Assembly (NCBI RefSeq): GCF_013391695.1
Contig: NZ_JACBGH010000001.1
Span: 248,001 to 312,000, forward strand
Direction of reading: 5' to 3'
From: Thiomicrorhabdus cannonii
GTDB lineage: Bacteria > Pseudomonadota > Gammaproteobacteria > Thiomicrospirales > Thiomicrospiraceae
DNA length: 64,000 nt
The translations under genes were made by a program, and so were the position numbers. The notes below the pieces were generated by a model. That model did not search any database. It had not been told where the DNA came from and saw nothing but the letters and a program-made list of their open reading frames with translations. This document shows positions 134 through 61,569 of this stretch, piece by piece; position 1 is the first letter of the stretch; every line of letters begins with the position of its first letter.

Positions 134-147
134 TCAACAGGCCGGGT
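134..147 (+). repeat. AACAGGCCGGG repeat, copy 1 (intergenic)
   Basis: The sequence TCAACAGGCCGGGT lies between the unknown gene and the FlhB-like gene. It matches the core of the 19-base consensus AAACTCAACAGGCCGGGTA found throughout the window, with two differences in the AAAC flank. Confidence 0.7.
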
Positions 148-172
148 ACAAGCCGCATCTGAGGAGTTCAAC

Positions 173-490
173 GTGAGCGATCAGAAAAAAAAGGCATCGA
201 CTCTGGCGGATAAAATAGCGGTTTCACTCCAGTATGATGGTGAAAAAGCCCCTATCGTCACCGCTAAAGGCAGCGGTCACATCGCCGAGCAGATCATCGA
301 ATTGGCTCGCGAGCATCAGATTCCGATTCAGCAGGATCCGGAACTGGTTTCATTATTGAGCCAGGTAGAACTCAATCAGGAAATTCCGCAAGTTTTGTAT
401 GAAGCCGTGGCTCAGGTGCTTGTGTTTGCCTATCAGCTCGGCGAAAAATCGCCGCCGCAAGCCAAACAAACACCTCCGCCATCAAGCTAG
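173..490 (+). CDS. FlhB C-terminal-domain paralogue (FhlB/YlqH-like export switch protein)
   Basis: This 105-residue protein resembles only the cytoplasmic C-terminal part of FlhB, the substrate-specificity switch of the flagellar exporter. The stretch from SLQYDGEKAPIVTAKG through ELVSLLSQVELNQEIP to a valine-rich helix follows the FlhB order after its cleavage site. The NPTH autocleavage motif and the membrane domain are absent. The GTG start at 173 is preceded by GAGGAG seven bases upstream. Full-length flhB is present separately at 9303-10436, so this is an accessory copy. It may substitute for or compete with the FlhB C-domain, which is inference. Its 3' end overlaps convergent cheW by 9 bp. 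Confidence 0.8.
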   Translation: MSDQKKKASTLADKIAVSLQYDGEKAPIVTAKGSGHIAEQIIELAREHQIPIQQDPELVSLLSQVELNQEIPQVLYEAVAQVLVFAYQLGEKSPPQAKQTPPPSS

Positions 491-1003
491 CTTCATCATC
501 ATGTTGTCCACATCGATCAGAATAATCACGTTGTTCTGATAATGCGCAATGCCTTGAATGTAGCGGGATGCATTTTCCTTAGTAGAGGATAAGGCTTCAA
601 AACGGCTTTCGGGGATGTCGCGCACTTCCATCACAAAGTCCACCATCATCCCAACCGTCTGCTCCTCTTCAAGCTCGACAATGATAATACGCGACAGATC
701 CGTAACCGGTTTTCTAGGCATGCCGTAAACCGTACGGGTATCAACCACCGTCACAATCACGCCGCGCACGTTGATAACCCCCAGCACATGCGACGGCGTA
801 CCCGCTACTTGGCGGATTTTGCCGACCCGCAGGACTTCACGAATTTTCTTCACGTAAATGCCGTAAATCTCGTCCTCCAGTGTGAACAGCACACAACGTG
901 CGCTCGGACCTGCATAGGCACCATCATCATCAAGCCCTGCATCTACCGCCTGAAACGATGAAAGCTTTTGTCTTGCATCTAAATTCATAAAGAACTCCCT
1001 CAA
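482..1003 (-). CDS. cheW: CheW chemotaxis coupling protein
   Basis: CheW links chemoreceptors to the CheA kinase in the cytoplasm. The SH3-like CheW domain spans roughly residues 33-170 and includes the typical GVINVRGVIVTVVDTR stretch. About 30 extra residues precede the domain. The gene directly follows cheA, whose stop lies one base upstream, so the two are translationally close. No cheB or cheR lies between or beside them. The 3' end overlaps the plus-strand FlhB-like gene, and no terminator is visible between the convergent pair. Confidence 0.92.
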   Translation of the reverse strand: MREFFMNLDARQKLSSFQAVDAGLDDDGAYAGPSARCVLFTLEDEIYGIYVKKIREVLRVGKIRQVAGTPSHVLGVINVRGVIVTVVDTRTVYGMPRKPVTDLSRIIIVELEEEQTVGMMVDFVMEVRDIPESRFEALSSTKENASRYIQGIAHYQNNVIILIDVDNMMMKLA

Positions 1004-3067
1004 TTACTGAAAGCGGTGGATAACACCCGGTAAATCCAAAATCAAGGCAATACTGCCATTCCCCGTAATGGTTGCGCCCGCATAGCCGGCGACTTTTTTG
1101 AGCATCATACCCAACGGTTTAATGACAACCTCTTCCTGACCGTTAACCTGCTCCACCACCAAACCGGCACGCTGGTTACCGATGGTCACAATCACGACCT
1201 TATCGCCTGCATAATCGTCTTTCACCTTCTCCGGCGCCAACCACTCCGTCAGAAAATACAGCGGAATACTCTTCTCGCGCAATCTCACCATCATTTGACC
1301 GTCGATTTTGTTGGTTTTGCCGGTTTCATAATCAAAAATCTCCTGCACACTGGTCAACGGAATAGCGTAGTTGTCCTCTCCGAAGGAAACCATCAGGGTT
1401 GGTAAAATCGCCAAGGTTAAAGGCACGCGAATACTCATGCGCGTTCCTTCGCCCAAAACGGAGTGAATGTCAATGCTGCCGTTCAGCTTGGTAATCATGC
1501 TTTTGACGACATCCATTCCCACACCGCGTCCGGAAATATCGCTAATCTGTTCCGCGGTCGAAAAACCGGCAGACATAATCAATTCAAATGCCGCCTTGTC
1601 GTCCAACTGGTTGGCCGTCATTTCGTCCAGCATGCCTTTTTCAACCGCTTTGCGACGCAAAACATCCGGGTCCATGCCTTTGCCGTCATCGGTGATGGAC
1701 AGCAGAATATGGTCCCCTTCCTGCTCGGCAGCCAAAATGACTGTACCTTTTTTAGGCTTACCGGCCTTAATGCGATCTGCCGGCATTTCAATGCCGTGAT
1801 CCACCGAATTACGCACCAGGTGGACCAACGGATCCGCCAGAGCCTCGACCAGGTTTTTATCCAGGTCGGTCTCCTCGCCACGCAATTCAAGTTCGATTTC
1901 CTTGCCCAGTTTGCGGGCCAAATCGCGAACAACGCGCGGGAACCGGCCGAACACTTTTTTAACCGGCTGCATACGCGTTTTCATGACCGACGTCTGTAGA
2001 TCAGTGGTGACATGATCCAAATTGGCCACCGCATTGGAGAGCTCTTCGCCGCTTGCCTGGGTGGTGCGCAAGGTTAGCAAGCGATTGCGTACCAGCACCA
2101 GCTCACCCACCAGGTTCATGATCTCATCCAAACGTTTGGTATCGACCCGCACGGTCGATTCCGTCGTACCTGGCTTGGCCGGAGCTTTGCTGGCACCGCT
2201 AGAAACGGGTTCATCGTCATCACTGGCAACTTGCGCTCTGGCGACGGCAGGTTTTGCCACTGGCTTCATCACTGGGATTTCCTCTTCAGGCTCAGTCATG
2301 GCTGACATTTCCAGCAAATCCCGCTGATTCAGCAAAGCATCGAATTCATCATCGGTAATTTCGCCATCCGGATCCATTCCTTCCGGAAGCTGTAAACTCG
2401 GCGTTTGCGCGACTCCGCCAACATGCAAGGTATCCAGAGAATCACGTTGATTCAGCAAGGCTTCGAATTCATCATCGGTAATTTCACCATCCGGATCCAG
2501 CCCTTCGGGTAGCTGTAGCGCTTTTTCTGCCTGAGAGACTGCAACGCCTGCTCCACCCTCTAACTGATCACGCTGATTGAGCAAGGCTTCAAACTCATCG
2601 TCGGTCATATCGCCATCCGGATCGACATCGGCCGGCAAGGATAATTTAGGCTGAGAAGCCCCCTCTTCAGCGACCGGCGCGGCTAACTGCCCTTTCGTTA
2701 AGGCGTCCAACTCTTTTAACAACGTCGGGTTATTTTCGGGCAGTTCTCTATGCCCCTCATTGAGCAGATTGATTGAATCGGAAATGACATCGAAAGCACG
2801 CAAAATCACATCTGCCGCGACCGCATCATATTCCACGTCGCCATTGCGTATCTTGTCAAACACGTTTTCAGCACGGTGACATACTTCGATCAGCGGCGTA
2901 ATGCCTAAAAATCCCGCGCCGCCTTTAATCGTATGAAACCCGCGGAATACGGCATTAAGCAGGTCCCGATCGCTTGGAGATTGCTCCAGATCGACCAACT
3001 GCTCATTCAGCTGATCGACCAGTTCCGTGGCCTCTACCAAAAAGTCCTGTAAAATATCCTCATCCAC
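1004..3067 (-). CDS. cheA: CheA chemotaxis histidine kinase with three acidic DxDG repeats
   Basis: CheA autophosphorylates in response to receptors and passes phosphate to CheY. The HPt domain is residues 1-110, with the phosphorylated His45 in FHTIKGGAGFLG. The dimerisation helices start near 305 (MNLVGELVLVRNRL). The ATPase domain shows its N box (HLVRNSVDHGIE), DDGKGMD and GRGVGMDV. A CheW-like domain fills the C-terminus. No classical P2 domain is seen. Instead, residues 143-252 carry three repeats containing DPDGEITDDEFEALLNQRD or close variants; the first fits an EF-hand loop (D147, D149, D151, G152, E158). A sigma54 site lies 75 bp upstream. Confidence 0.93.
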   Translation of the reverse strand: MDEDILQDFLVEATELVDQLNEQLVDLEQSPSDRDLLNAVFRGFHTIKGGAGFLGITPLIEVCHRAENVFDKIRNGDVEYDAVAADVILRAFDVISDSINLLNEGHRELPENNPTLLKELDALTKGQLAAPVAEEGASQPKLSLPADVDPDGDMTDDEFEALLNQRDQLEGGAGVAVSQAEKALQLPEGLDPDGEITDDEFEALLNQRDSLDTLHVGGVAQTPSLQLPEGMDPDGEITDDEFDALLNQRDLLEMSAMTEPEEEIPVMKPVAKPAVARAQVASDDDEPVSSGASKAPAKPGTTESTVRVDTKRLDEIMNLVGELVLVRNRLLTLRTTQASGEELSNAVANLDHVTTDLQTSVMKTRMQPVKKVFGRFPRVVRDLARKLGKEIELELRGEETDLDKNLVEALADPLVHLVRNSVDHGIEMPADRIKAGKPKKGTVILAAEQEGDHILLSITDDGKGMDPDVLRRKAVEKGMLDEMTANQLDDKAAFELIMSAGFSTAEQISDISGRGVGMDVVKSMITKLNGSIDIHSVLGEGTRMSIRVPLTLAILPTLMVSFGEDNYAIPLTSVQEIFDYETGKTNKIDGQMMVRLREKSIPLYFLTEWLAPEKVKDDYAGDKVVIVTIGNQRAGLVVEQVNGQEEVVIKPLGMMLKKVAGYAGATITGNGSIALILDLPGVIHRFQ
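2308..2641 (-). repeat. Three in-frame EF-hand-like repeats within cheA
   Basis: Three units of about 26 residues, spaced about 42 residues apart, encode LP-x-x-x-DPDG-x-x-TDDEF-x-ALLNQRD. They fall around residues 143-166, 186-209 and 227-250 of CheA. The first has acidic residues at loop positions 1, 3, 5 and 12 plus Gly at 6, as in a calcium-binding EF-hand. In the second and third, position 1 is Gly. Confidence 0.75.
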
Positions 3068-3141
3068 AATCAGTACCTCTTCTCGCTATCGCGTTGCACA
3101 TTCACTTTTGGAATGCCTTCCAAATTCAGTGCAAATCTATT

Positions 3142-3157
3142 AGCAATCAATGTGCCA
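3142..3157 (-). promoter_or_regulatory. Sigma54 promoter upstream of cheA
   Basis: On the minus strand the site reads TGGCACATTGATTGCT, a full match to TGGCAC-N5-TTGCT with the required GG-N10-GC spacing. It sits between cheZ and cheA, about 75 bp from the cheA start, so cheA-cheW can be transcribed apart from cheYZ. Confidence 0.8.
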
Positions 3158-3188
3158 TACCCTCTTATCTGCATAGCCTTAAAGCCGC

Positions 3189-3848
3189 TTAAATCCCTAG
3201 ATCACTCAATAAATCATCAATATCCTCTTGAGAATCCAAGGCACCCTGTTTCGAGTCGCGGGTAACATTCGGCCCCATCCCTTTGCTCTCCTGAGCCTTC
3301 TGCTCCTCTTCGGAATAGCGGCGCTCCGGAATCTTTTCAAAATCGTGCTTGGAACGTTCAATCAAGTTTTTCAGACTCTCTTCAAGCGCCGTCACAATAA
3401 GAATCACACGGTTTAATACCTGACCGGTCAAATCCTGAAAGGACTGCGCCAACATAATGTTCGTCAGCTCACTATTCATTTGCTGTTTTAACTGCTTGGC
3501 AGCCTCCAGACTTACATCATCTGCCAGCGTCAACTCCTCCAATAATTCAGAAAGATTTTCGGCCGCCTGCAATGTCTTACCGCTCGCCGCCTGCGTTTCA
3601 TGAATCACATACTGCAAACGTTCAGCAATATCCGGCAAATCATGCTTCGCATGCAGCAGGATCGGCGCATCCACCTCAAGATCGTCTAAAGTTTCGTGCA
3701 AATTCTTGGTTAACGCTTCCAACTGTTGATAAATCTGCGTTTCACGGATACGGGTCAATTCATCCAACAAATCCGCCACACGTCCTTGATCTTCCTGCTC
3801 GACGGCATCCAATAAGGTTAATACGATTTGCTTATCAATTTGCTTCAT
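3189..3848 (-). CDS. cheZ: CheZ CheY-P phosphatase
   Basis: CheZ removes phosphate from CheY and so ends the signal to the motor. The 219-residue protein is mostly helical. It contains QDLTGQV near residue 136, the region holding the catalytic glutamine and its aspartate in known CheZ proteins. The C-terminal tail QEDIDDLLSDLGI matches the amphipathic peptide that binds CheY. It follows cheY, but a strong terminator lies between the two genes, so cheZ dosage may be lower than that of cheY. Confidence 0.92.
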   Translation of the reverse strand: MKQIDKQIVLTLLDAVEQEDQGRVADLLDELTRIRETQIYQQLEALTKNLHETLDDLEVDAPILLHAKHDLPDIAERLQYVIHETQAASGKTLQAAENLSELLEELTLADDVSLEAAKQLKQQMNSELTNIMLAQSFQDLTGQVLNRVILIVTALEESLKNLIERSKHDFEKIPERRYSEEEQKAQESKGMGPNVTRDSKQGALDSQEDIDDLLSDLGI

Positions 3849-3867
3849 GCTTCTTTTCCTCTGGCCA

Positions 3868-3912
3868 TAAAAAAACCCCAGGCTATAAACGCAGTTACAG
3901 CTTTGGGGTTTC
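3868..3912 (-). terminator. Intrinsic terminator between cheY and cheZ
   Basis: On the minus strand AAACCCCA pairs with TGGGGTTT across a loop of about 20 bases, and seven T residues follow. It begins 28 bp after the cheY stop and ends about 20 bp before cheZ, so it may act as an attenuator. Confidence 0.75.
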
Positions 3913-3939
3913 TATTATCATCGTAATCTACAATAAATA

Positions 3940-4350
3940 TTAAGATTGCGCTTTTTGTCTTTCCGCAACACGCTCGAATATTTTCTGGATTTTTTCATTC
4001 AGTGTGGCGGCCGTAAAAGGCTTCACAATATATCCGTCCACCCCGGCCTGCGCAGCTTCGAGGATCTGGCTGCGCTTGGCTTCGGCGGTGATTAGCAAAA
4101 AGGGCGTGTCTTTTAATTTTTCATCGGCACGGACATGGCGCAAAAGATCAATACCTGTCATTTGCGGCATATTCCAGTCACTCACGATAAAATCGTATTT
4201 ACCGGTTTTGACCATTGGCCAAGCCGTCGCACCGTCATCAGCCTCATCAAACTTGCTAAAACCGAGTTCTTTTAATAGGTTTTTTACAATACGACGCATG
4301 GTTGAAAAGTCATCCACGACCAAAATATTAATATCTCTATTGATTTGCAT
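3940..4350 (-). CDS. cheY: CheY chemotaxis response regulator
   Basis: This is a single receiver domain of 136 residues that, when phosphorylated by CheA, binds FliM and changes motor rotation. The acid pocket is Asp13-Asp14 in VVDDFSTMRR, the phosphorylated residue is Asp58 in SDWNMPQMTG, and the conserved lysine is in YIVKPF. It lies 50 bp after fliA and just before the terminator that precedes cheZ. The order flhA-flhF-flhG-fliA-cheY-cheZ-cheA is the usual one for polar flagella in Gammaproteobacteria. Confidence 0.95.
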   Translation of the reverse strand: MQINRDINILVVDDFSTMRRIVKNLLKELGFSKFDEADDGATAWPMVKTGKYDFIVSDWNMPQMTGIDLLRHVRADEKLKDTPFLLITAEAKRSQILEAAQAGVDGYIVKPFTAATLNEKIQKIFERVAERQKAQS

Positions 4351-4400
4351 CTCGTTTCCTTAACCGTCAACTTTTCACATTTTTAAAAATCTAATAAATT

Positions 4401-5129
4401 CTACATCCAATCCGCCAAACGCGAACGCAGGCGCTTGATCGCCTGACTATGGATCTGACTGACTCTCGACTCACTCACATCGAGCACTTCGCCAATCTCT
4501 TTGAGGTTTAATTCTTCATCATAATAGAGTGCCATGACCAGCTTCTCTTTTTCCGGCAACGCCATAATCTCCCGGGCCAACGCCTCTTGGAAACCATTTT
4601 CCGCCAACTCGGCAAAAGGCGTCATCAGCGAACCGACCATGCGCTCCTCTGCCAGCTCCTCATGGTCCGGTTCATCAATGGACAACAGCTGCGCACTATT
4701 GGTATCTTGCAAAATCGCGTGGTATTCCATCACTGAAATACCCATCTCCATAGCAATTTCGTCATCCTTGGCCTCTCGACCATTGCGCGCTTCAACCCGG
4801 CTGATAGCCTCGCTCACCTCACGGGATTTGCGGTGCACCGAACGGGGCGTCCAATCCCCTTTGCGAATCTCGTCGAGCATGGCTCCACGGATGCGAATCC
4901 CGGCATAGGTCTCAAAGCTCGCCCCCTGATCCGGACTGAACTTCTGCATGGCTTCAATCAAGCCAATAATGCCTGACTGAATCAAATCTTCGACAAACAC
5001 ACTGTCCGGCAAGCGCCCTTTCAGGTGATAAGCAATACGCTTCACCAGTGGCAGATATTGCTCCAAATCCATCTCAACACGCTGCACAGCCTGTTTTTGA
5101 ATGGAAGTATAAGCGTTTGCTCCAGTCAT
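4401..5129 (-). CDS. fliA: FliA, flagellar sigma28 factor
   Basis: FliA directs RNA polymerase to late flagellar promoters. Region 2 includes DLIQSGIIGLIEAMQKF and FETYAGIRIRGAMLDEIR, and region 4 ends with the helix-turn-helix LKEIGEVLDVSESRVSQIHS. Length (242 residues) is normal. Its likely targets in this window are the TAAA-N14-GCCGATAA sites before fliD and the three flagellin pairs. No flgM (anti-sigma factor) is visible. The gene starts 10 bp after the flhG stop and is probably cotranscribed with flhF-flhG. Confidence 0.95.
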   Translation of the reverse strand: MTGANAYTSIQKQAVQRVEMDLEQYLPLVKRIAYHLKGRLPDSVFVEDLIQSGIIGLIEAMQKFSPDQGASFETYAGIRIRGAMLDEIRKGDWTPRSVHRKSREVSEAISRVEARNGREAKDDEIAMEMGISVMEYHAILQDTNSAQLLSIDEPDHEELAEERMVGSLMTPFAELAENGFQEALAREIMALPEKEKLVMALYYDEELNLKEIGEVLDVSESRVSQIHSQAIKRLRSRLADWM

Positions 5130-5138
5130 GCAACCTTC

Positions 5139-6017
5139 CTAGTGACCTGATTGAAAAAGACTTTCCACAAAAAATTGCAGGTACCCCGTCGCCCCTCGCG
5201 GCACAGGCCATGAATCAATCGCGTAAGCCATCTCCTTAAACGACTTGGCTGCGGCGCTGTTTGGGTAACTGATCGTCACCGGCACCTGTTTCTGCACAGC
5301 TTCACGCAGATCATTATCATAAGGCACGCTCCCCAGATAATCCAAGGTTACGTCCAAAAATTGTTCGCTGACACGTGCCAATTTCTCAAATAATTGCCGT
5401 CCATGCTGCGCGGAACGACTCATATTCGCCAATAGTCTGAAACGCGACACCTGATAATCCCGGCTCAATACCTTGATCAATGCATAGGCATCCGTAATGG
5501 AGGCAGGTTCGTCCGTCACCACCACCACGACTTCCTGCGCCGCACGGCAGAAACTCACCACACTGTCGGCAATACCGGCGGCCGTATCGATAATCAAAAC
5601 GTCCAACTCGCCGTTGAGCTCGGAAAACGCATTAATAATGCCGGCGTTCTCCATGGCTGTGAGCTGCGCCATGCGTCGGATTCCAGAAGCGGCAGGAATA
5701 ATCTTCAAACCGGCAGGCCCTTCAACAATGACTTCCTTCAGCGTTTTTTCACCATCCAACACATGCGCCAGGTTATAGCGAGTTTGCAGACCCAGCATAA
5801 TATCGACATTGGCCAAGCCCATATCCGCATCCATCAGCAACACACGATTGCCCAATTTGCTCAGCGAAATACCGAGGTTGACCGATACATTCGTTTTACC
5901 CACCCCGCCTTTGCCACTGGCCACGGCAATCACACGAACCGGCTTGCCTGACGGCTTAGGCGTTTGCACTTGATTGGATTGCATTGCTCGCAAGCCTGCT
6001 GCCTGATCATTGAGCAT
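5139..6017 (-). CDS. flhG: FlhG (FleN) MinD-like ATPase, flagellar number regulator
   Basis: FlhG is a membrane-associated ATPase that limits flagellar number and antagonises FleQ and FlhF. The deviant Walker A motif is SGKGGVGKTN, followed by DADMGLANVD and DTAAGI. I chose the ATG at 6017 because AAAGGAG precedes it and because it places the conserved FlhF-activating motif DQAAGLR at residues 4-10. An ATG 60 bp further upstream has no such support. The gene overlaps the flhF stop by 11 bp, so translation is coupled. Predicted length is 292 residues. Confidence 0.93.
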   Translation of the reverse strand: MLNDQAAGLRAMQSNQVQTPKPSGKPVRVIAVASGKGGVGKTNVSVNLGISLSKLGNRVLLMDADMGLANVDIMLGLQTRYNLAHVLDGEKTLKEVIVEGPAGLKIIPAASGIRRMAQLTAMENAGIINAFSELNGELDVLIIDTAAGIADSVVSFCRAAQEVVVVVTDEPASITDAYALIKVLSRDYQVSRFRLLANMSRSAQHGRQLFEKLARVSEQFLDVTLDYLGSVPYDNDLREAVQKQVPVTISYPNSAAAKSFKEMAYAIDSWPVPRGATGYLQFFVESLFQSGH

Positions 6018-7182
6018 CAGATATCTCCTTTCCCATCCCCATACGGAGCGCACTCTCTTCATAATCTGCGGACGCATTTTGCTGTCCTAACACCATTGCC
6101 CGGTCAATCAATTCACTCACCTTAACAGGCATTAAATCCTCTGGTACACGCTGTCCATCGGACATATAAACCAGCGGTAACTGTTCTTCAATCAATACCG
6201 TCAAAATATTGCCAAGCTGTAAGGCCTCATCCACCTTGGTCAGAATACACCCCTGCAATCCCACCTGGCTGAATGACTTGATGATATCCTGCATCACCTT
6301 CAGCTGTGTCGCGGCGGAAATAACCAAGTAATTACGGACACTGCTGACCCCTTGCTGCGTGGTGGTCAGCTGCTGTGATAATTGCAAATCACGCTGGCTC
6401 ATGCCGGCCGTATCAATCAAAATCAGCTTCTTATTCGTTAACGACGCCAACAGCGCATACAACTCACCCTGGGAGTTAACGACATGCACCGGCACGCCCA
6501 GCAAATCGGCAAATGTCTTGAGCTGTGCCTGGGCGCCAATTTTATAACAGTCAGTTGTAATCAGAGCCAACTGACTCGCGCTGTTGCGCATCACAAAGCG
6601 ACTGGCGATTTTAGCAATGGTGGTCGTTTTGCCGACCCCAGTTGGTCCAACCAAAGCCACAATGCCGCCACGTTCGAGAAAATCGCGCTCTTCTGAAGGA
6701 ATCTGGCGCTCGATTGAACGTAAAATTTCTGACCAGGCCAGGTCTGATCGGGTATCCACCTTTTCAACCAGCTTCTGACTTAAGCCCCAGCCTATCCCCA
6801 GACGCATCAGCCGCTTAATCAGCGACACCTTGTGAGGGTCGGCCTGCTCGCTCTGCCCCCAAGCCAACCCCGACAGCTGATTTTCCAGCAATGCACGCAT
6901 GGCTTTGAGCTCTTGCGCCATATGACTTATCTCGGGCGCACTGTCGAGCTTGCTCTCTTGGCGGCCATACAGCGGGGTTTCAGGAGAAACAAAACTACTA
7001 CCGGCCTGTTGAGTTTGTTTTTGCTGCTGATAAGCTTGCGCTTCAGGATCAGAAGCGGCCACAATTTCGACGCCCTCGTCCGTGGTGCGGCTCGATAGAA
7101 TGACCGCATCATCACCATGCGCCTCTCTCACCAATAACATGGCTTGACGCATCGTCGGAGCAAAGTAGCGTTTTATTTTCAA
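6007..7182 (-). CDS. flhF: FlhF, SRP-type GTPase for polar flagellar placement
   Basis: FlhF is a GTPase of the signal-recognition-particle family that places the flagellum at the pole. An N-terminal B domain (MKIKRYFAPTMRQAMLLVRE) and a variable linker precede the NG domain. The P loop is GPTGVGKTTTIAKIA near residue 178, followed by LITTDCYKIGA, DTAGMSQRD and the TKVDEA specificity motif. The linker contains one AAACTCAACAGGCCGG repeat copy, encoding part of QTQQAGS. The gene starts one base after the flhA stop. Confidence 0.95.
   Translation of the reverse strand: MKIKRYFAPTMRQAMLLVREAHGDDAVILSSRTTDEGVEIVAASDPEAQAYQQQKQTQQAGSSFVSPETPLYGRQESKLDSAPEISHMAQELKAMRALLENQLSGLAWGQSEQADPHKVSLIKRLMRLGIGWGLSQKLVEKVDTRSDLAWSEILRSIERQIPSEERDFLERGGIVALVGPTGVGKTTTIAKIASRFVMRNSASQLALITTDCYKIGAQAQLKTFADLLGVPVHVVNSQGELYALLASLTNKKLILIDTAGMSQRDLQLSQQLTTTQQGVSSVRNYLVISAATQLKVMQDIIKSFSQVGLQGCILTKVDEALQLGNILTVLIEEQLPLVYMSDGQRVPEDLMPVKVSELIDRAMVLGQQNASADYEESALRMGMGKEISDAQ
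7000..7016 (-). repeat. AACAGGCCGGG repeat, copy 2 (inside flhF)
   Basis: On the minus strand the sequence is AAACTCAACAGGCCGGT. It falls in the variable linker of FlhF, where it encodes residues around QQAG. Confidence 0.7.
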
Positions 7183-19787: not shown

Positions 19788-20237
19788 TTACTTGCGACTC
19801 TGTTGCAGGGCCGAAAGTTCGTCGAGAAAACGTTGTTCGCGTTTATCCAACCCGGCCTGTTCAGTTTGTTTGAATTTGTCGTGAAGTTTTTGCAGCGCCT
19901 TGAGTCGGGTGCGCTTTTCCAACCAAACCTGTCTGGCGTGTTCAACCACATCCGCTAGTCTGCCGGTTTTTTCGGATTCGACCTGAATGGCCTGATGCAG
20001 TTTCGCCACAAAGGCCTGCGTGGAAAGCATCTGAATCGGCTGTAAAATACGCCCTTGCCCCACGGTGGATTGGCCGTACTCCTCCACATAGGACTTCAAC
20101 TGCTCTAATTGCGCCAAATGCTGCTGATATTGCTGCTGTACGGCTGCCAAGGTTTTGACAGCTTTGTCCTCCTCGATTTCAGCCAGCTCCACCAGTGTCT
20201 GAATTTTTTGACTGCGCGATTTCAAAGCCCACCCCAC
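19788..20237 (-). CDS. fliJ: FliJ, export chaperone-escort protein
   Basis: FliJ is a coiled-coil protein that links the FliI ATPase to FlhA. The 149-residue sequence is almost entirely helical, charged and rich in Gln and Glu, as expected. Identity depends on position after fliI as much as on sequence. The apparent start is GTG at 20237, with a weak ribosome site, 13 bp after the fliI stop. The copy of the AACAGGCCGGG repeat at 19851 falls in its coding sequence (around QTEQAGLDK). Confidence 0.85.
   Translation of the reverse strand: MGWALKSRSQKIQTLVELAEIEEDKAVKTLAAVQQQYQQHLAQLEQLKSYVEEYGQSTVGQGRILQPIQMLSTQAFVAKLHQAIQVESEKTGRLADVVEHARQVWLEKRTRLKALQKLHDKFKQTEQAGLDKREQRFLDELSALQQSRK
19851..19867 (-). 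repeat. AACAGGCCGGG repeat, copy 3 (inside fliJ)
   Basis: The minus strand reads AAACTGAACAGGCCGGG, with G in place of C at one position of the consensus. It encodes part of QTEQAG in FliJ. Confidence 0.65.
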
Positions 20238-21668: not shown

Positions 21669-22478
21669 CTATTCGTCGGCGTCAGCGCTAGAAGATTGTT
21701 CCGCCAACGCTTGCGCTTGAAGTTTGACGGACATGGTTTCGAAACGATTTTTCCAGTTATGCTCGACCGTGGAAAAACCTTGTTTGACGCGACAACTGCC
21801 CAAAGCCACATCATGATCGCCCATTACCCGCCAGTTTTTGGAAAACTCCGGCTGATGCGATTCGATTAACAGCAAATCCTGAGGGTTGAGAACAATCTCG
21901 ATGGGGCTCAAGTCGTCCTGCAGCACTTTAACCGCATCCTGAACGATTTTTAGAATCCAGTCACTATTCTGCTGCAGCTCCTGCTCAATCACCTCTTCGG
22001 CAATCTGCAGCGTCAATTTCACCAGGTTTTCGAACACCTTGGCTTCCAGCCGCTCATAAGGTGTACTAAAGGATTTCAGAATGGTCTGCAAACGTTCAAT
22101 TTCAGGCAGCAAGGCCTCTTTCGCCTCGACCAACGCGATTTCCTTGCCCTCCTGCTCCCCGAGCGCCTTGCCCTCGGCATAGCCGGCATCAAAGCCGGCA
22201 CGCTTGGCCTCTTCAAACGCCTCTTTTTTCAGCAGTTCGGTCTGGCGCGTGATTTCGGGTTGCATCTGCTCTTTGATTTTGGCGTAAACCTGCGCCTCAA
22301 CCGCTTTGTCTTGCTGCTTGTCCTCATCCGCCAGATTGCTCAGCTTCCAGGTGCGAATAGTCGGTTGTTCGAGGTCTTTGGCCTGAATCAACGTGGCGAC
22401 CTCCGGTGCCTCCTCAGACCCGGCCTGCTGAGATTCCGGACGATAGTTTTTTTCAACAAACGAGGATGCGTCGCCCAC
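21669..22478 (-). CDS. fliH: FliH, regulator of the export ATPase
   Basis: FliH binds FliI and tethers it to the C-ring. The protein has a variable N-terminus, a Glu/Lys/Gln-rich coiled coil with GFDAGYAEGKALGEQEGKE (the family's glycine repeat region, about 115-133) and a C-terminal domain resembling the ATP-synthase stator. The start is GTG at 22478, directly next to the fliG stop. The tail QALAEQSSSADADE is acidic. A degenerate copy of the window-wide repeat lies at 22420. Confidence 0.9.
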   Translation of the reverse strand: MGDASSFVEKNYRPESQQAGSEEAPEVATLIQAKDLEQPTIRTWKLSNLADEDKQQDKAVEAQVYAKIKEQMQPEITRQTELLKKEAFEEAKRAGFDAGYAEGKALGEQEGKEIALVEAKEALLPEIERLQTILKSFSTPYERLEAKVFENLVKLTLQIAEEVIEQELQQNSDWILKIVQDAVKVLQDDLSPIEIVLNPQDLLLIESHQPEFSKNWRVMGDHDVALGSCRVKQGFSTVEHNWKNRFETMSVKLQAQALAEQSSSADADE

Positions 22479-28374: not shown

Positions 28375-28390
28375 AAACTCAACAGGCCGG
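28375..28390 (+). repeat. AACAGGCCGGG repeat, copy 4 (fleQ-fleS gap)
   Basis: AAACTCAACAGGCCGG, then C, lies in the 63-bp gap between fleQ and fleS and matches the consensus for 16 bases. Confidence 0.7.
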
Positions 28391-28408
28391 CTCCCAGAAA
28401 TCTTTAAT

Positions 28409-35786: not shown

Positions 35787-35802
35787 GATTTTTTTCATCA
35801 AT

Positions 35803-37832: not shown

Positions 37833-37843
37833 AGCTTTTTTTT

Positions 37844-37884: not shown

Positions 37885-37918
37885 CTTGTGAATGGCCCAG
37901 CTATTGGCGTATCAATAC

Positions 37919-38749: not shown

Positions 38750-38809
38750 GTCTTTTCTCCTTTTTTAACTTGGCCGCTTTTGTTAAGCGACTTCTTTGCG
38801 TTTAAAAAC

Positions 38810-38824
38810 CATCGCACGGCGATG
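38810..38824 (-). promoter_or_regulatory. Intercistronic hairpin, B3-A3
   Basis: CATCGC and GCGATG pair around ACG or its complement, followed by GTTTTT on the minus strand. It is identical to the B2-A2 copy. Confidence 0.55.
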
Positions 38825-38860
38825 ACTTTTTAACTGCTCTTGGGGATTCAGCCGCCTATT

Positions 38861-39873: not shown

Positions 39874-42366
39874 TTAAATCTGTGCTAACAAATGCCGTGC
39901 CGTTTGATGATGCGGCGTCGCTTGCAATACGGCCTGCAATACCACCCTGGCCTGTTCAGTTTCGCCAAGCTCAATCAACTTTTGAGCATAATGAACTTTC
40001 ACTGACTCGTTTTCAGGATTTTGTTGTAGATAGAGCTTCAAGACCTCTACCGCAAAGGCTTTATGTCCAAGCAACTCCAGTAAGGAGGCATACGGAAGCA
40101 TATACTCCAACGAATAATGGCACAGCTGCTCCAATAGATTTAACGCTAATTCATCATTGTGAAGTTCGGTCGCGATATTAAGTGCTCGCTTAAGCGCCTG
40201 GTGGCGGATGGGCGCATAGTGGACACTTAAATAGGCTTGCAACGCCGTTTCTTGTGCACCCTGCAGATCATTTTTCAGTGCCAGCACAAACTCGTTCAGA
40301 TCCGTCGCTCCCTCCTGCTCATCCAGAGACTTGAGATGATCGATGGTATGCTCGATTTCAACCAGATCTTTGTTCTCATAGGCTTCAAGCGCGCGATTGA
40401 AAAGACCGGGAAGATCGCGGCTTTTTTGTTGTAAATTGGCCAGCTGAGTAGTCTGGGAAGTATTAACCAACTCGTCAAACAAAGCAGTTTGGGCTTCCAG
40501 AAGCGAATTTTGCGCTTCAGAAACAGGCGAGTGCCAGGCCTTCCAAAGATAGGCACGACCGGGCTGCTCCATGCGCTGCCATTGTTCGATGCACGCCGCC
40601 AGGTTCTCGCCCTTAAGCTCATTGATGCGCAGCTCGACCATCGACTGGGTGGTCATCAGCTCTTTATGAAACAGTTCGGCCGCCTGCATCACCGCGTTGA
40701 AAAAACCGTTCAACTGCTCTTGTATTTCATTTTGTTGCATGGCCTGTTCATCCACCAGGCTCTTGAAGTTGGTACTAAAATGCTTATGCTCATAATGAAA
40801 CAGCATATCCCCATCTTCATCAATCGCTTTGGTGATACGCTTTTTGAGTTTGAGGAACTTCTGCACTACCCTGGCCTGTTCATTCCCCTGAGGGTCAAAC
40901 ATGTTACCCACCAGCGCAACCGCCTCCTTGGCATCACGCGCAATTTCATGAAAGCGCTTCGACTGTTTTTTCAACTCCGCCAACACCGTTTTGACTTTTT
41001 TGAGGCGCTGAACTGGCGATAAGCGCAACGCATCGATCATAGCGCCAATTTCAAACTGAATTGAACGTCCTTCCAGCGTTAAATCGGCCGGTGCGACATA
41101 TTCCACTCCCTCGATTTTAGCGGAATACAGACCCAGGGTTAAAAACTGCAATCCCGGCTTTGCCTGCCGATAACGCGCCACCTGTGCTTCCAGCATCTCC
41201 CGCCCCAACGCATACATAGGCTGTGTCTGCGCCATTTCGCCGGCATTGTTTTCAACTTTCTGAATCTCATTGAAAACGAATTTACCGCCCGATTTAGCCT
41301 CATCCGATCCGGATTCAAATGCCTGCGTTCCTACAAAACACATATCCACACCGCTGAGAATAAAGGTGGAACACCCCAGTTCAAACGCCAGGTGCATAGC
41401 CGTATTGATAACGTTCGGCCCCGGAGAAGCAAAGTTTTCGGCCTCGTCATTATGCCATGGGGTTCTCTCGCCCAAATAAGCACTCACCCCAGGCCACTGG
41501 CCAAGAATTTTGGGATTGATGTGGTGACTGTGAGCCAGTAAGGCCGTATCGCTGAAATTAAAAATCCCCTTGGAGTTATCAAAACTCACATCATGAGGAT
41601 CCACGGAAACAAAAATATCCGGACGAATCCCCTCTTTAACCAGACGGCGTGCAATGCGCGCCGCCGAAAAAATAAGAACACGCTGCTGATTGGCTTTAAT
41701 CCACTCAATGGCACCATCCAATGTCGGGCCGCCGCCCAAAATTAGCGCCGTGGCACCTTCAAGACGGTTGCGCATGGTCACCATCGGCATGAGATTGTCA
41801 GCCAGATTATGCAATTGCGCATCAATGAATGGTTTGGCATTCAGCGAAATCAGCTCTTGCTTAATCAAGCGCGAATAAAGTGCTTCAACGTGCCTCCAAA
41901 GCGTATCGTAAGCAGTGCCATTCTTGGCTTCTTGTACGGCAAACGAGCGCATCAGGTGAATATTGCGGCGCACCAGATAAGGCATATACTCCACAGCAAT
42001 CTGATTCAGATCAAACGTATCACTCACCACCACAATCTGCGATTCATCGTTCTGTGCAAGCTGGGTAAGCTTGTCTTGGATCGGTTCCAATGCCGCCGGA
42101 TAATCAATCAACAGATAACGACTGTGCAACGGCAACTGAGGTTGTGCGAGCAGATATTCCAAAAACAGCCCAGAATCCGTGCCAACCACAATAAACAGGT
42201 GATCTTCTTCGCTCAGCAATTCCGGAAAAAACTGCCGATAAAGCACTTCAGACGAATGCCTGGCAAACGAGGTAGGCGTTATTTGAGGATAATAAACCTC
42301 TCCAAACTGATTGCGTTGCAACTCGCCAAATTGATTTTCCATGAGTATCCCTGTGTATTTTTTCAT
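39874..42366 (-). CDS. Maf-type flagellin glycosylation factor (DUF115) with C-terminal repeats
   Basis: This is a large motility accessory factor, a family needed to attach nonulosonic acids to flagellin and also called MptE-like for its DUF115 core. The core has ALILGGGPTLDGAIEWI (about residues 211-227), FVSVDPHD and TFILSGVDMCFVG. The C-terminal 200 residues look like TPR helices (LLEQLCHYSLEYMLPYASLLELLG, then VKVHYAQKLIELGETEQA). The start is uncertain: ATG at 42366 has AAGGAG very close, and ATG at 42342 has a weaker site. It lies between the sugar pathway and the flagellins. Confidence 0.88.
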   Translation of the reverse strand: MKKYTGILMENQFGELQRNQFGEVYYPQITPTSFARHSSEVLYRQFFPELLSEEDHLFIVVGTDSGLFLEYLLAQPQLPLHSRYLLIDYPAALEPIQDKLTQLAQNDESQIVVVSDTFDLNQIAVEYMPYLVRRNIHLMRSFAVQEAKNGTAYDTLWRHVEALYSRLIKQELISLNAKPFIDAQLHNLADNLMPMVTMRNRLEGATALILGGGPTLDGAIEWIKANQQRVLIFSAARIARRLVKEGIRPDIFVSVDPHDVSFDNSKGIFNFSDTALLAHSHHINPKILGQWPGVSAYLGERTPWHNDEAENFASPGPNVINTAMHLAFELGCSTFILSGVDMCFVGTQAFESGSDEAKSGGKFVFNEIQKVENNAGEMAQTQPMYALGREMLEAQVARYRQAKPGLQFLTLGLYSAKIEGVEYVAPADLTLEGRSIQFEIGAMIDALRLSPVQRLKKVKTVLAELKKQSKRFHEIARDAKEAVALVGNMFDPQGNEQARVVQKFLKLKKRITKAIDEDGDMLFHYEHKHFSTNFKSLVDEQAMQQNEIQEQLNGFFNAVMQAAELFHKELMTTQSMVELRINELKGENLAACIEQWQRMEQPGRAYLWKAWHSPVSEAQNSLLEAQTALFDELVNTSQTTQLANLQQKSRDLPGLFNRALEAYENKDLVEIEHTIDHLKSLDEQEGATDLNEFVLALKNDLQGAQETALQAYLSVHYAPIRHQALKRALNIATELHNDELALNLLEQLCHYSLEYMLPYASLLELLGHKAFAVEVLKLYLQQNPENESVKVHYAQKLIELGETEQARVVLQAVLQATPHHQTARHLLAQI

Positions 42367-44211: not shown

Positions 44212-45331
44212 GCAAGTCTTCCACTAAAGTGTCTATGATTTTCTGTACGGCCAAACTCGGGTCAGGAAGATGTACTTTGGCCTGACGCCATAACACCTGC
44301 TGTATTTCGGGCTTAAGGCCCGCCTCGAATACCGGCAATATCTCTTCTTCTTTATCGACCGACAGCAACAAACCTTCACTCAACAAAGGCATTTGTGTCA
44401 GACCGCTGTAATCCTGCCACCAGGCGATCATATCGGCATCGAACCACAAATAGACGCTACTGTTAAACGGCTGCTCGGCCATCTCATTCAAATAGAGATT
44501 ATCAAATCCGCAGGTGGAGAACACACTCACCACCAGATCCGCCACGCACAGACTCTGCACGATATCTGTTGCACTATCCCACTGCAGGCGGTCGCCGACG
44601 GCCTGCTCAAACAACTGCCAGGTCTTCGTACGCAGCTCTTCCGATTCTTTGGGATGCGGGCGGTAGATCAGTTTGAACTCCCGCCGCCATTCACGCAATT
44701 GGCGTGCCAACGCCTCCAAAGTGGCAAAATAGCCCTGCACCTCCAGAATCGGCTGGCCGTAAAATCCAACAATCACCGTCTCCCCAGAACTCAACAGGCC
44801 GGGGCGGTGCAATGCCCGCAAAGCCCCTGCATCATAGGCTTTGAAGTCGGCATGCTTGATCGAACCGATCGGCACCGAACGGATTTGCGGATAACGCTGT
44901 TCGGTAATGCGCACCGCCTCGTCATCCAATACAAACGCATGTTTAGGCACGACCCCTGACAATTGATTGACATCTCCCCAGAAACTCTGCAACGCATAGC
45001 TTTCGATGCCCAGCTGCTGTGCCACCGCCAAGGTCGCCTCATCCACCCCCAAATCCGGGCCGGAAATACCGCACAACACGGCATCGGCATCAAAAACCTC
45101 TAAAAACGTCCGTACTTTCGACTGTTTGTCGGCAAATGTCGCCTCTGGCAGAAATTCATGCAAATCGGGAAAAACGCCTCTCAGAATCTCACAGGCAGGC
45201 GCCTGGGCGAGTACGGCTATATCGAAACGGGGATGGGATTGCAGCTGGGGAATCAGGATTTGGAATGAGAGCGCGGTGGCGGGATCGCGGGCGGTAATGA
45301 GGAGTTTAATGCGCTTTCGGCAGCCTGACAT
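44198..45331 (-). CDS. Glycosyltransferase-like protein of unknown specificity
   Basis: The 377-residue sequence looks like a GT-B fold. An N-terminal Rossmann-like strand (IKLLITARDPATALSFQIL) is followed by a C-terminal half with FKLIYRPHPKESEE and LVVSVFSTCGFDNLYL, a pattern seen in polysialyl- and glycerophosphotransferase-like enzymes. I cannot assign a donor or acceptor. Its first 79 bp overlap the preceding kinase gene, and a later start would remove the first strand. One copy of the window-wide repeat lies inside it. Transfer of sugar to flagellin is inference. Confidence 0.55.
   Translation of the reverse strand: MSGCRKRIKLLITARDPATALSFQILIPQLQSHPRFDIAVLAQAPACEILRGVFPDLHEFLPEATFADKQSKVRTFLEVFDADAVLCGISGPDLGVDEATLAVAQQLGIESYALQSFWGDVNQLSGVVPKHAFVLDDEAVRITEQRYPQIRSVPIGSIKHADFKAYDAGALRALHRPGLLSSGETVIVGFYGQPILEVQGYFATLEALARQLREWRREFKLIYRPHPKESEELRTKTWQLFEQAVGDRLQWDSATDIVQSLCVADLVVSVFSTCGFDNLYLNEMAEQPFNSSVYLWFDADMIAWWQDYSGLTQMPLLSEGLLLSVDKEEEILPVFEAGLKPEIQQVLWRQAKVHLPDPSLAVQKIIDTLVEDLHAAI
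44788..44804 (+). repeat. AACAGGCCGGG repeat, copy 5 (inside the GT-like gene)
   Basis: AACTCAACAGGCCGGGG lies antisense to the gene, where it encodes RPGLLSS. Confidence 0.7.
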
Positions 45332-46371
45332 AAGATACTTTGTAATAATGGACGCTGTTGGTCAGCTAGCTTATACAAAAACACAAACTTTTTCCACTCT
45401 GCAGATAAGGGTTTATGCGCAACTTGCGCCGCTTCGATCAATAGCAGCAGCGCGCGCACCGCCAAAGCCTGCAACAGTTCGGTCAGATGCTCGGGGTGAT
45501 TGAAACGGCGGTGATGCGCCTCATAATAGGCCTGCAAAAAAGCCAACCCCAAGTCCAGATGCGCATCCTGCTCCAAATCGTGTGTGAACACAAAACGCTC
45601 CAAAACAAATGCCAGATCCTTCATCGGGTTAAACCAGGCGCTGAGGCTATCCTCCCAATCAAGGAAAACGCACTGTATCCTGTCACCCTCTGCGGCCATC
45701 CAGACATTGCCCAGATTCAGGTCGCCATGCACCATCTGCGCCTCCTCCACCAATACCTGCAAGGCGTCGGCCGGGTAAGTACGCAACACCGCCATAACCT
45801 CGTCGGGCAGTTCTATTGCCAAACCGCCTTTCTGCCACGCCAGCAACCGCGCCTGCAGATGCGCAAAACGCGCCATGCCTCTGGCTTTCACATCGCCGGC
45901 CTGCGGAAACGCCTGCAGCGCCAGATGCAGCCGCCCCAACGACCGGCCAAGACACTGCATCTCCTGACGATTTTGAGCACAAAACCGCCCCGGCAGATAA
46001 TCCTGCACCAGCAGCGTTGCCGTGTCATCCAGCACAATCGATTCCTGCACAGGGCTGGTGGCGATACCGTGAACGTTGAGCCACTGCGCCACCTTGTCGG
46101 CGGCGAGGTGGCGCTCGGCCTGTGCCGGCGTGACCACCTTGAGAAACAGTTCGCCTTCGGCTTGCTTTAGGCGATAGTAACCAAACGGTAAAGGATGGGA
46201 GGTACGCAAGCGTGCCAGTCCGGCATAAGCGCCGAATCGGCGAGAAAGCGTCTTTAAAAAAACTGAACAGGCCGGGTCCTTGGCAAACGATTCTTCCACC
46301 GGCTGCCATAGCAAATCGGGCGGATGAACCCCCTCAAACGCTGGGGAACCGGGCAGCCAAAGCGCACTCAT
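45253..46371 (-). CDS. APH-fold phosphotransferase (small-molecule or sugar kinase-like)
   Basis: The protein has the aminoglycoside/choline kinase fold. The catalytic loop VHGDLNLGNVWM and the metal-binding FLDWEDS lie at about residues 218-245. The N-lobe lysine is probably in GELFLKVVTPAQ. In this cluster the substrate may be a sugar or its precursor, but nothing in the sequence tells which. It lies 11 bp after the second NeuB-like gene and overlaps the GT-like gene by 79 bp. It carries one repeat copy. An antibiotic-resistance role is unlikely given the context. Confidence 0.7.
   Translation of the reverse strand: MSALWLPGSPAFEGVHPPDLLWQPVEESFAKDPACSVFLKTLSRRFGAYAGLARLRTSHPLPFGYYRLKQAEGELFLKVVTPAQAERHLAADKVAQWLNVHGIATSPVQESIVLDDTATLLVQDYLPGRFCAQNRQEMQCLGRSLGRLHLALQAFPQAGDVKARGMARFAHLQARLLAWQKGGLAIELPDEVMAVLRTYPADALQVLVEEAQMVHGDLNLGNVWMAAEGDRIQCVFLDWEDSLSAWFNPMKDLAFVLERFVFTHDLEQDAHLDLGLAFLQAYYEAHHRRFNHPEHLTELLQALAVRALLLLIEAAQVAHKPLSAEWKKFVFLYKLADQQRPLLQSILCQAAESALNSSLPPAIPPPRSHSKS
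46260..46277 (+). repeat. AACAGGCCGGG repeat, copy 6 (inside the APH-like gene)
   Basis: AAACTGAACAGGCCGGGT lies antisense to the gene, near its start, where it encodes DPACSVF. Confidence 0.7.
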
Positions 46372-47447: not shown

Positions 47448-47464
47448 TATCCACGCCCCCGGCC

Positions 47465-47484
47465 ACCCGGCCTGTTGAGTTTTA
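47465..47484 (-). repeat. AACAGGCCGGG repeat, copy 7 (intergenic)
   Basis: The minus strand reads AAAACTCAACAGGCCGGGT, a full match over 19 bases apart from the final A. It lies in the 44-bp gap between the hisH-like gene and the second neuB-like gene. Confidence 0.8.
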
Positions 47485-50210: not shown

Positions 50211-50284
50211 GGGTATCCTTTGTGTTCCAAATGGGGTGTTTATTGTTATTTTTTAATGTCCATGCGGTTTGCCGTTCATTCCAT

Positions 50285-50300
50285 ACTGAACAGGCCGGGT
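50285..50300 (+). repeat. AACAGGCCGGG repeat, copy 8 (intergenic)
   Basis: ACTGAACAGGCCGGGT lies in the 121-bp gap between the legG-like gene and the amidotransferase. The rest of the gap has no clear promoter. An imperfect GGGTCTT/AAGACCC pairing spans part of it. Confidence 0.7.
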
Positions 50301-50331
50301 CTTTTGTTATAACGGCGGACAAACTTAATTC

Positions 50332-53157: not shown

Positions 53158-54310
53158 GACACACCACCCCGCTGGGTAGATTGACGACACGGTCCGCCAA
53201 CCACTCGGTATGGGGCATCTCGGTGCGCAGACAGTCTGCATAAATCGGTAAGCGGTGCAGCGGCGTCCACAAGGGGCGGGTCTGGATACCGGCGTCGTTG
53301 CTCTGCTGCAAAAAGGCGTCGCGTGCTGGCAAATCGGGCAGAATCGCGCCATTCAACCAATAATTCGCCTGGCTGTTTTTGGGCTCCCGCAAACTCAACA
53401 GGCCGGGTATGGTTTCAATCCACCCTCGATACTTTTCGGCCAAAGCGCGCTTCTCACGCAAAAAATCGGGAAGCTGCTGCATCTGCGCCACCCCCAAGGC
53501 CGCATTCAAATTAGGCATACGCAGGTTAAAGGCGATTTCATCATGCTCAAACAGCCAGGCATGCGAAATTTTGGCGGTGGTACTCAAATGCTTGGCGTGC
53601 GCCGCCAGCGCATCGTCGTTGGTCACCAACATCCCGCCGCCGCCGGTGGTGACGATTTTATTGCCGTTAAAACTGAACACGCCGCTCTGTCCGAAGGTAC
53701 CGCTGTGCCGGCCTTGCAACGTGCTGCCGAGACTTTCGGCGGCATCTTCAATCACAGGAATGGAGAAGGCGCTGCAGACGTCAATCAGACGGTCGATTTC
53801 TGCACAGAAACCGAGCGTATGCATGGGCACGCAGGCACTGATGCGCCGGCCGCTGGCTCTATGCATACAGACACCATCCTTAAGGGTGGCCTGTTCATTT
53901 AAAAAAGCCTGCAAAACATCGGCAGACAAACCGTAAGTATCGGCATCCACATCGATAAAGACCGGTTCCGCACCGAGCATCTTGATCGCATTGGCGGTCG
54001 CCACAAAGGTCAGGGATTGGGTCAGCACCAGATCGCCCGCCCGCACCCCGGCCACCTTCAGCGCCAGATACAACCCCATGGTACCGTTGACTACCGCAAC
54101 GGCATGCTTGGCGCCGGTAAACGCCGCAACCTCCTCTTCAAGGCGGGTTACATACTGCCCGACCGAGGAGACAAACGTGGTATCGATACAGTCATTCACC
54201 AACGCTTTGGCCTGTTCGTTAAAACAGGGCGCGTGCAAAGGTATGAAATCAGCATTGCGATAATGGCCGCGAATGGCGTCTATTAAACTGGCAAACGCGG
54301 GATTAGACAT
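53150..54310 (-). CDS. legC: PLP-dependent sugar aminotransferase (LegC, DegT family)
   Basis: LegC adds the 4-amino group to the keto sugar made by LegB. The PLP lysine lies in VFSFNGNKIVTTGGGGMLVT (about residues 200-219), and the family features IPVIEDAAESLGS and QSLTFVATANAIKMLGAEPVF are clear. Length (386) is normal. It overlaps legB and legH by 8 bp each. A copy of the window-wide repeat lies antisense in its C-terminal third. Confidence 0.92.
   Translation of the reverse strand: MSNPAFASLIDAIRGHYRNADFIPLHAPCFNEQAKALVNDCIDTTFVSSVGQYVTRLEEEVAAFTGAKHAVAVVNGTMGLYLALKVAGVRAGDLVLTQSLTFVATANAIKMLGAEPVFIDVDADTYGLSADVLQAFLNEQATLKDGVCMHRASGRRISACVPMHTLGFCAEIDRLIDVCSAFSIPVIEDAAESLGSTLQGRHSGTFGQSGVFSFNGNKIVTTGGGGMLVTNDDALAAHAKHLSTTAKISHAWLFEHDEIAFNLRMPNLNAALGVAQMQQLPDFLREKRALAEKYRGWIETIPGLLSLREPKNSQANYWLNGAILPDLPARDAFLQQSNDAGIQTRPLWTPLHRLPIYADCLRTEMPHTEWLADRVVNLPSGVVCHG
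53391..53408 (+). repeat. AACAGGCCGGG repeat, copy 9 (inside legC)
   Basis: AAACTCAACAGGCCGGGTA, a full match to the consensus, lies antisense in legC, where it encodes around IPGLLSL. Confidence 0.8.
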
Positions 54311-59526: not shown

Positions 59527-59545
59527 AAACTCAACAGGCCGGGTA
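59527..59545 (+). repeat. AACAGGCCGGG repeat, copy 10 (intergenic, before flgK)
   Basis: AAACTCAACAGGCCGGGTA, a full match to the consensus, lies 23 bp upstream of the flgK start and beside the MITE-like element but outside it. Confidence 0.8.
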
Positions 59546-61393: not shown

Positions 61394-61409
61394 AGCAGAG
61401 GTTATGCCA
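61394..61409 (-). promoter_or_regulatory. Sigma54 promoter upstream of flgI
   Basis: The minus strand reads TGGCATAACCTCTGCT, with GG-N10-GC spacing and two differences from the consensus. It lies about 93 bp upstream of flgI, downstream of the terminators that follow flgH. Confidence 0.7.
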
Positions 61410-61442
61410 AAGATTACAAAAACTAAAAAAAAGATTAAAGAA

Positions 61443-61461
61443 AGCGGCTTTTAGGCCGTTA
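61443..61461 (-). terminator. Weak second hairpin before flgI
   Basis: On the minus strand CGGC and GCCG pair around CTAAAA, followed by a T-rich stretch (CTTTCTTTAATCTTTTTTTT). The stem is short, so it would act at most as a backup terminator. Confidence 0.4.
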
Positions 61462-61486
61462 AAATCAGGTTTGAAAAAACGATCGG

Positions 61487-61506
61487 AAAACTCAACAGGC
61501 CGGGTA
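61487..61506 (+). repeat. AACAGGCCGGG repeat, copy 11 (flgH-flgI gap)
   Basis: AAAACTCAACAGGCCGGGTA is a full match to the consensus. It lies 25 bp from the inverted pair that forms the terminator and could pair with the nearer arm instead. Confidence 0.8.
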
Positions 61507-61520
61507 GAAGCCATAAGTGA

Positions 61521-61569
61521 AAAAGAAAAAACCGGCCTGCAAAAAGGAGATTTAGAAAAACAGGCCGGT
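61521..61569 (-). terminator. Terminator built from two inverted repeat copies
   Basis: On the minus strand ACCGGCCTG (61568-61560) pairs with CAGGCCGGT (61539-61531), nine perfect base pairs around a 20-base loop, then TTTTTTCTTTTT follows. Each arm is a partial copy of the window-wide repeat. It would end the operon that includes flgF, flgG and flgH. Confidence 0.8.

Follow-up and report, generated by a model that had tools for sequence, protein, structure and literature searches.

A dispersed 19-base motif with lineage-specific spellings in Thiomicrorhabdus cannonii is a probable DNA-uptake sequence

A 64,000-nucleotide stretch of contig NZ_JACBGH010000001.1 (C1) of Thiomicrorhabdus cannonii, hereafter the window, carries scattered copies of a short motif that probably marks the species' own DNA for uptake. 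The genome concerned, G000, comprises 2.49 Mb in 59 contigs; relatives are coded G001 onward, L labels with coordinates denote sampled stretches of these genomes, and genome counts were obtained by pattern search. The 19-mer AAACTSAACAGGCCGGGTA, allowing up to 3 mismatches, is found at 13 places in the window, compared with a mean of 0.01 in 100 shuffles, far above chance. All 11 copies listed in that prediction are among the 13 and show the same division into eight on the plus strand and three on the minus strand, with exact starts that differ by 0–4 bases from those first given. The exact core AACAGGCCGGG occurs at 9 places in the window; with up to one mismatch it occurs at 26, where 1.14 are expected, and part of these 26 are repeats inside paralogous flagellin-like genes.

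Perfect copies of the 19-mer lie on the plus strand in legC, which encodes a LegC family aminotransferase (53391..53409), between genes just upstream of flgK (59527..59545) and between genes upstream of flgI (61488..61506). Further intergenic copies, as placed by a home-made gene caller, are found at 130..148 (plus, near the window edge; 2 mismatches, exact core), 28375..28393 (plus; 2 mismatches, one of them in the core), 47464..47482 (minus; 1 mismatch) and 50283..50301 (plus; 2 mismatches, exact core). Inside genes, flhF holds a minus-strand copy with 3 mismatches, one in the core (6998..7016), and fliJ a minus-strand copy with 1 mismatch (19849..19867). Two weak minus-strand copies with 3 mismatches each, in fliH (22417..22435) and in an MptE-like gene (39944..39962), had not been listed previously. 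The copy at 44787..44805 (plus, exact core) is located in the open reading frame (ORF) 44198–45331, which matches no Pfam or NCBIfam family, and its earlier designation as GT-like is therefore unconfirmed. The copy at 46260..46278 (plus) either belongs to the 5′ end of an APH-like gene or immediately precedes it: the longest ORF includes the copy in its first 112 bases, yet the gene caller starts that gene farther on, so that its placement inside the gene is uncertain. The assignments of flhF, fliJ, legC and the APH-like gene otherwise stand. Additionally, the inverted pair of partial copies described earlier is present at 61531..61569, with ACCGGCCTG at 61531–61539 and CAGGCCGGT at 61561–61569; the pair adjoins a stretch rich in T when read on the minus strand. 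Two other repeat families were seen in the window, namely six tandem repeats of ~0.95–1.1 kb in three alternating pairs at 33921–39685, which by sequence resemble flagellin genes, and three 85-base direct repeats at 2310–2643 inside ORF 1004–3067, 72–87% like the first.

The core is over-represented throughout the genome. Specifically, it occurs 511 times (255 forward, 256 reverse), compared with 2 occurrences of the reversed-core control, and 116 times in 574 kb of own sequence, where Markov models of order 2–4 give 0.4–0.8; the genome-wide count proposed as a check by the original prediction thus came out far above expectation. In the same 574 kb, none of core positions 3–8 has more than one single-mismatch variant; the other counts are 7 (position 1), 20 (position 2), 8 (position 9), 5 (position 10) and 34 (last G). 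The extended consensus of 96 exact copies reads AAAAACT(C/G)AACAGGCCGGGTa and, unlike the palindromes of relatives described below, is asymmetric; it has ~20 informative positions and an information content of ~23 bits when refined from one seed (18.5–23.7 over four seeds). Two AT-rich tracts lie upstream of the core at −9 to −4 and −21 to −18, about 13 nt apart centre to centre, with a GC-richer stretch between them at −16 to −13, and conservation fades beyond them. This pattern is kept separately in 33 intragenic, 46 unpaired intergenic and 32 paired copies, being weakest in the intragenic ones, and is therefore not merely a by-product of terminators. Orientation shows neither a trend nor a switch along the contig, with 42 plus and 39 minus copies in the first 437 kb of C1 (hand count) and 18 plus and 22 minus in C1:440–660 kb, the balance being checked by contig rather than on replichores. 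These data bear on a recombination hotspot like Chi, or on a site for chromosome organisation that resembles FtsK-orienting polar sequences (KOPS) or serves a nucleoid protein, in either case with lineage-specific spellings. Hundreds of dispersed short copies would suit such a site, and Chi sequences differ between lineages. However, Chi- and KOPS-like roles fail because strand bias is lacking; in addition, Chi and KOPS are shorter than the motif found here, the spellings of sister species are palindromic, and copies form head-to-head hairpin pairs. We consider this explanation quite improbable.

Gene placement was analysed with the same gene caller on 464 kb and 522 kb of own sequence. In the former, 67 of 96 exact copies are intergenic; in the latter, 79 of 111 copies (71%) lie between genes and 32 within them, although non-coding DNA makes up 12.5% of the sequence. 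Of the intergenic copies of the 522 kb set, 28 lie between convergent genes, 5 between divergent and 43 between tandem ones, settings that contribute 7%, 28% and 65% of intergenic bases, respectively; the remaining 3 are at stretch edges. All 15 pairs of copies within 80 nt in the 464 kb set are head to head, and four own pairs that were folded gave −38 to −43 kcal/mol with z-scores of −7 to −10. Head-to-head copies between convergent genes may double as terminators. Among the intragenic copies of the same set, 25 of 29 fall in two frame-and-strand combinations. A marked intergenic excess is also seen in G005, G018, G023, G025 and G030; in G005, G018, G025 and G030, 11–34 copies lie outside genes, compared with 3.5–7.6 expected. 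The hairpin-forming inverted pairs would also be expected of repeats like repetitive extragenic palindromic (REP) or bacterial interspersed mosaic elements (BIME), or of a terminator element mobilised by a transposase, REP elements having been named as an alternative in the original prediction along with KOPS-like motifs. This reading fails because of the intragenic copies and because replacement at homologous sites, described below, is largely point-wise with alignable flanks; the frame preference and the loss of conservation beyond the AT tracts also speak against it. We regard it as very unlikely.

A comparison of genomes indicates that the motif has lineage-specific spellings. Among 191 genomes, AACAGGCCGGG is abundant only in G000 and its sister species G004 (300 copies), whose FlhA is 98% identical to that of G000; other relatives have at most 17 copies. 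In samples of sister species, another motif was recovered by k-mer counts. The palindrome CAGGCCTG occurs in 236–1173 copies in 18 of 38 in-family relatives (reversed controls, 0–27) and in at most 62 copies in the remaining 20, so that its counts are bimodal; the own genome has 74 copies (control, 20), and 21 class outgroups have 0–222 (controls up to 91). A third spelling, the palindrome ACCGGCCGGT, reaches 1025 copies in G023 (sampled in L163–L165, L238–L240 and L256) and at most 20 in the other 59 genomes. All three spellings are built around GGCC. On an FlhA tree of 33 rows with genomes labelled by spelling, in which the label 'none' for G001, G012, G017 and G022 was set by pattern counts, supplemented at most by a small sample, 5 label changes suffice, compared with a shuffled mean of 10 (0 of 200 shuffles as low). 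The AACAGGCCGGG genomes G000 and G004 group as a single clade (100/100), which nests with the CAGGCCTG genomes G005, G018 and G008, and G023 is placed among species without a known spelling. The spellings are thus dialects consistent with phylogeny.

Over-represented k-mers revealed no motif of such kind in 40–60 kb each of G003, G011, G013, G014, G020, G024, G026 and G031, nor in larger samples (60–148 kb) of six of those eight species. Two strong k-mers, one in G020 and one in G026, are local, belonging to an array with a 60-base period and a 12-base tandem repeat, respectively. The G020 array, beginning at about position 9900 of L246, holds 97 matches of one repeat unit, of which 11 of the 12 shown are 60 bases apart on one strand, and resembles a CRISPR array. 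The same genome contains a palindrome, TTCACGTGAA, in 7 copies in eight stretches totalling 148 kb, 3 of them in the first 60 kb where chance predicts about none, perhaps a regulator site. GC content and motif count are not significantly related.

Comparison of homologous blocks provides the strongest evidence that one spelling has been exchanged for another in place. In blocks shared with G005, 7 of 12 own copies face CAGGCCTG within 8 nt of the homologous column and, in the reverse direction, 7 of 16 G005 copies face an own copy; in blocks shared with G018, the corresponding figures are 5 of 8 and 5 of 12. Homologous sites differ mostly by point changes. Both arms of one pair are spelled differently from both sisters (own L046:19676/19702, G005 L254:8004/8031, G018 L252:9744/9770), and at the ybeY site (own L230:11281) the three species differ only synonymously, as read by eye from the aligned letters. 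Some sites retain the old spelling unswitched, such as AACAGGCCTGG at own L041:2719, and other old sites have decayed, for example in flhF. Such replacement in place would follow from a change in the preference of whatever reads the motif.

Taken together, these findings suggest that the motif is probably a self-recognition sequence for DNA uptake and would represent a third family of uptake sequences, of the same functional kind as the DNA uptake sequence (DUS) and the uptake signal sequence (USS), unrelated to them in sequence and belonging to a third bacterial family, Thiomicrospiraceae, which comprises Thiomicrorhabdus, Hydrogenovibrio and Thiomicrospira. The likeness to DUS and USS put forward in the original prediction is partly supported, by over-representation, by spellings that differ between lineages and switch at homologous sites, and by head-to-head pairs that fold as hairpins; neither a receptor nor a PilQ match over cut-off was found in its favour. 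In the mechanism that we propose, a surface component, probably a minor pilin of an MSHA-type pilus, would bind free DNA through the core ACAGGCC(G/T)G and the upstream AT tracts; the bound DNA would enter via a secretin, be ratcheted by ComEA and be passed on by ComEC. Recombination would then spread the motif, because motif-bearing alleles would be taken up more often. A shift in what the receptor prefers, in the common ancestor of T. cannonii and G004, may have caused the ancestral CAGGCCTG spelling to be replaced where copies already stood.

Several observations weigh against DNA uptake. We know of no precedent for a palindromic uptake signal, and palindromes are the spelling of 18 relatives and of G023. 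Own sites lacking a counterpart within 8 nt amount to 5 of 12 in the comparison with G005 and 3 of 8 in that with G018. None of 18 sampled CAGGCCTG copies in G035 is intergenic, compared with 2.0 expected; all 18 lie in ORFs (L184, L261), and inverted hairpin pairs were not seen in these samples. Small samples likewise gave no intergenic excess in H. halophilus (1 of 8), G036 (1 of 8) and T. sp. ALE5 (0 of 3), as well as in G008 (0 of 4), which lies inside Thiomicrorhabdus, and H. sp. SC-1 has 2 of 4 copies between genes; outside that genus, the intergenic excess is missing or unclear. The palindromic spellings, the G035 copies confined to ORFs and the presence of GGCC in every spelling would each fit a palindrome comparable to HIP1, highly iterated, intracellular and maintained through DNA methylation or through recombination and repair; AACAGGCCGGG would then be its derived, asymmetric spelling. 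This explanation sits poorly with the asymmetric own motif, its 5′ AT tracts and hairpin pairs, and with the marked intergenic excess in the own genome, G005, G018, G023, G025 and G030. Moreover, in a methyltransferase survey confined to the C5 family PF00145, no match occurred in 13 of 21 motif-bearing genomes, G000 included. We judge the HIP1-type explanation unlikely on balance, somewhat less so than a Chi- or KOPS-like role. It is possible that two regimes coexist, HIP-like in some genera and uptake-like in Thiomicrorhabdus. Finally, the 511 copies in G000 fall below the 1465–5918 quoted for Haemophilus and Neisseriaceae in excerpts of two papers (PMC3630211, PMC7811141).

The uptake machinery provides further points on both sides. 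Competence genes, the lack of which had been named as a sign against uptake, exist in the own genome as ComEC and ComEA; however, comEC is in two parts, with 592 codons at C1:88,048–89,826 and a 274-residue match at C1:50,566–51,357. Between them lies a 36.7 kb Mu-like prophage (C1:51,358–88,047; L250:3358 to L232:8047) with genes for a Mu transposase, a transposition protein, terminase, portal, head, sheath, tape-measure and baseplate proteins. The isolate may therefore not be transformable. The prophage contains 0 motif copies, compared with 7.5 expected, showing that the motif is rare in foreign DNA as far as this one prophage represents it. The prophage also carries a Dam-like D12 methyltransferase. 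ComEC and ComEA occur in 35 and 33 of 39 in-family genomes, respectively (E ≤ 0.001), including several without a known spelling, and are thus non-discriminating. The split comEC, together with the failure to find ComEC in the fragmented genome of the sister species G004, would fit a dead former uptake system whose motif persists as a relic in these two species. Nevertheless, the core is hardly degraded and the older spelling has been replaced at many sites, which points to recent activity, and the Mu-like insertion, known from one isolate, may be chance; a relic has very little probability in our estimation.

PilQ (TIGR02515) matches over cut-off are found in 0 of 39 in-family genomes, compared with 18 of 21 class outgroups, and weaker secretin matches occur in the family. 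The own genome encodes an MSHA-type set with an MshL match of 243.7 bits, just under the 250.2 cut-off, an assembly ATPase with an MshE-related cyclic di-GMP domain and a GspF/PilC-type protein, as well as a TadA-like ATPase with a secretin and a cluster resembling type II secretion pseudopilins. Should a pilus drive uptake, the MSHA-type system would probably power it. No receptor was found among the candidates considered. GspH/FimT has no match in the own genome; its in-family matches are confined to G011, G020 and G026, just over cut-off, and by position belong among type II secretion pseudopilins. A small minor pilin beside hslV (L041:6636–7142, minus strand) has a net charge of 0 in G000 and a cysteine-bounded C-terminal loop, and the other pilins in the sampled stretches, apart from its orthologs, have net charges of −5 to −66. 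Orthologs of 57–63% occur in G005, G025, G030 and the motif-less G003, adjoining hslV in 3 of 4. The pilin is patchily distributed in the genus and is not beside hslV in G018, G020, G023 and G024, where it may lie elsewhere undetected, and all ten prepilin matches of G018 sit in other clusters. Being absent from this position in motif-bearing G018 and present in motif-less G003, it does not track the motif and was rejected as receptor. Two clusters of mostly large acidic pilin-like proteins with a common PCPD segment were also noticed (L230:14270–19999, L031:300–3998), with counterparts in many of the relatives sampled.

We further put forward, tentatively and as plausible rather than probable, a fuller scenario of DNA uptake in this family. 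The motif would represent a third, independently evolved self-DNA uptake code that began as an ancestral GGCC-centred palindrome and operates through a pilus other than the canonical PilQ kind, probably one of the MSHA type; a change of core would have turned it into a directional signal with upstream AT tracts, the genome being rewritten largely site by site, and the G023 spelling would have arisen separately. If uptake is confirmed, this would be a third case, found in free-living autotrophs, and would show that bacteria not bound to hosts evolve such codes too. One genus would then offer three spellings as well as species that have none, a setting in which comparison could directly test the evolution of uptake specificity, the switching of receptors and molecular drive; the motif might also offer a transformation handle for these sulfur oxidisers. 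A 2025 paper, in the part available, describes such motifs as known only from Neisseriaceae and Pasteurellaceae (PMC12616744). In the open-licence literature, no record joins Thiomicrospira and 'uptake sequence'; among the matches listed for the genus names with transformation terms, no title concerns uptake sequences in these genera, and among those listed for CAGGCCTG with 'palindrom', none is relevant by title.

Compared with known systems, the motif shares features with each of three. HIP1 of cyanobacteria is, like the spelling of sister species, a highly iterated GC-rich palindrome; the excerpt available links it to orphan methyltransferases and reports that one D12-class methyltransferase of Anabaena reads GGCC (PMC4390886). 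The own motif differs in being asymmetric, largely intergenic, often paired and of another sequence, in a genome without a C5-methyltransferase match (PF00145). The DUS of Neisseriaceae, as far as the accessible portion of its description goes, shows dialects following phylogeny, permissive sites and inverted pairs at terminators (PMC3630211), and resembles the present motif as an over-represented short sequence with inverted, terminator-associated intergenic pairs, intragenic copies and dialects. The present motif is unrelated in sequence to the neisserial 12-mers, and here most motif-bearing relatives have palindromes, copies are fewer, and neither a ComP-like receptor nor a canonical PilQ over cut-off was identified. 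The USS of Pasteurellaceae belongs to another bacterial family and has lineage types according to a section of one paper (PMC12616744); the core described here is neither AAGTGCGGT nor ACAAGCGGT and lacks GCGG. In Haemophilus, AT tracts beside the USS core contribute to uptake, according to the part of the study available (PMC7811141), and AT tracts likewise accompany the core in T. cannonii, where they lie 5′ of it as written, with the same ~13 nt spacing given above.

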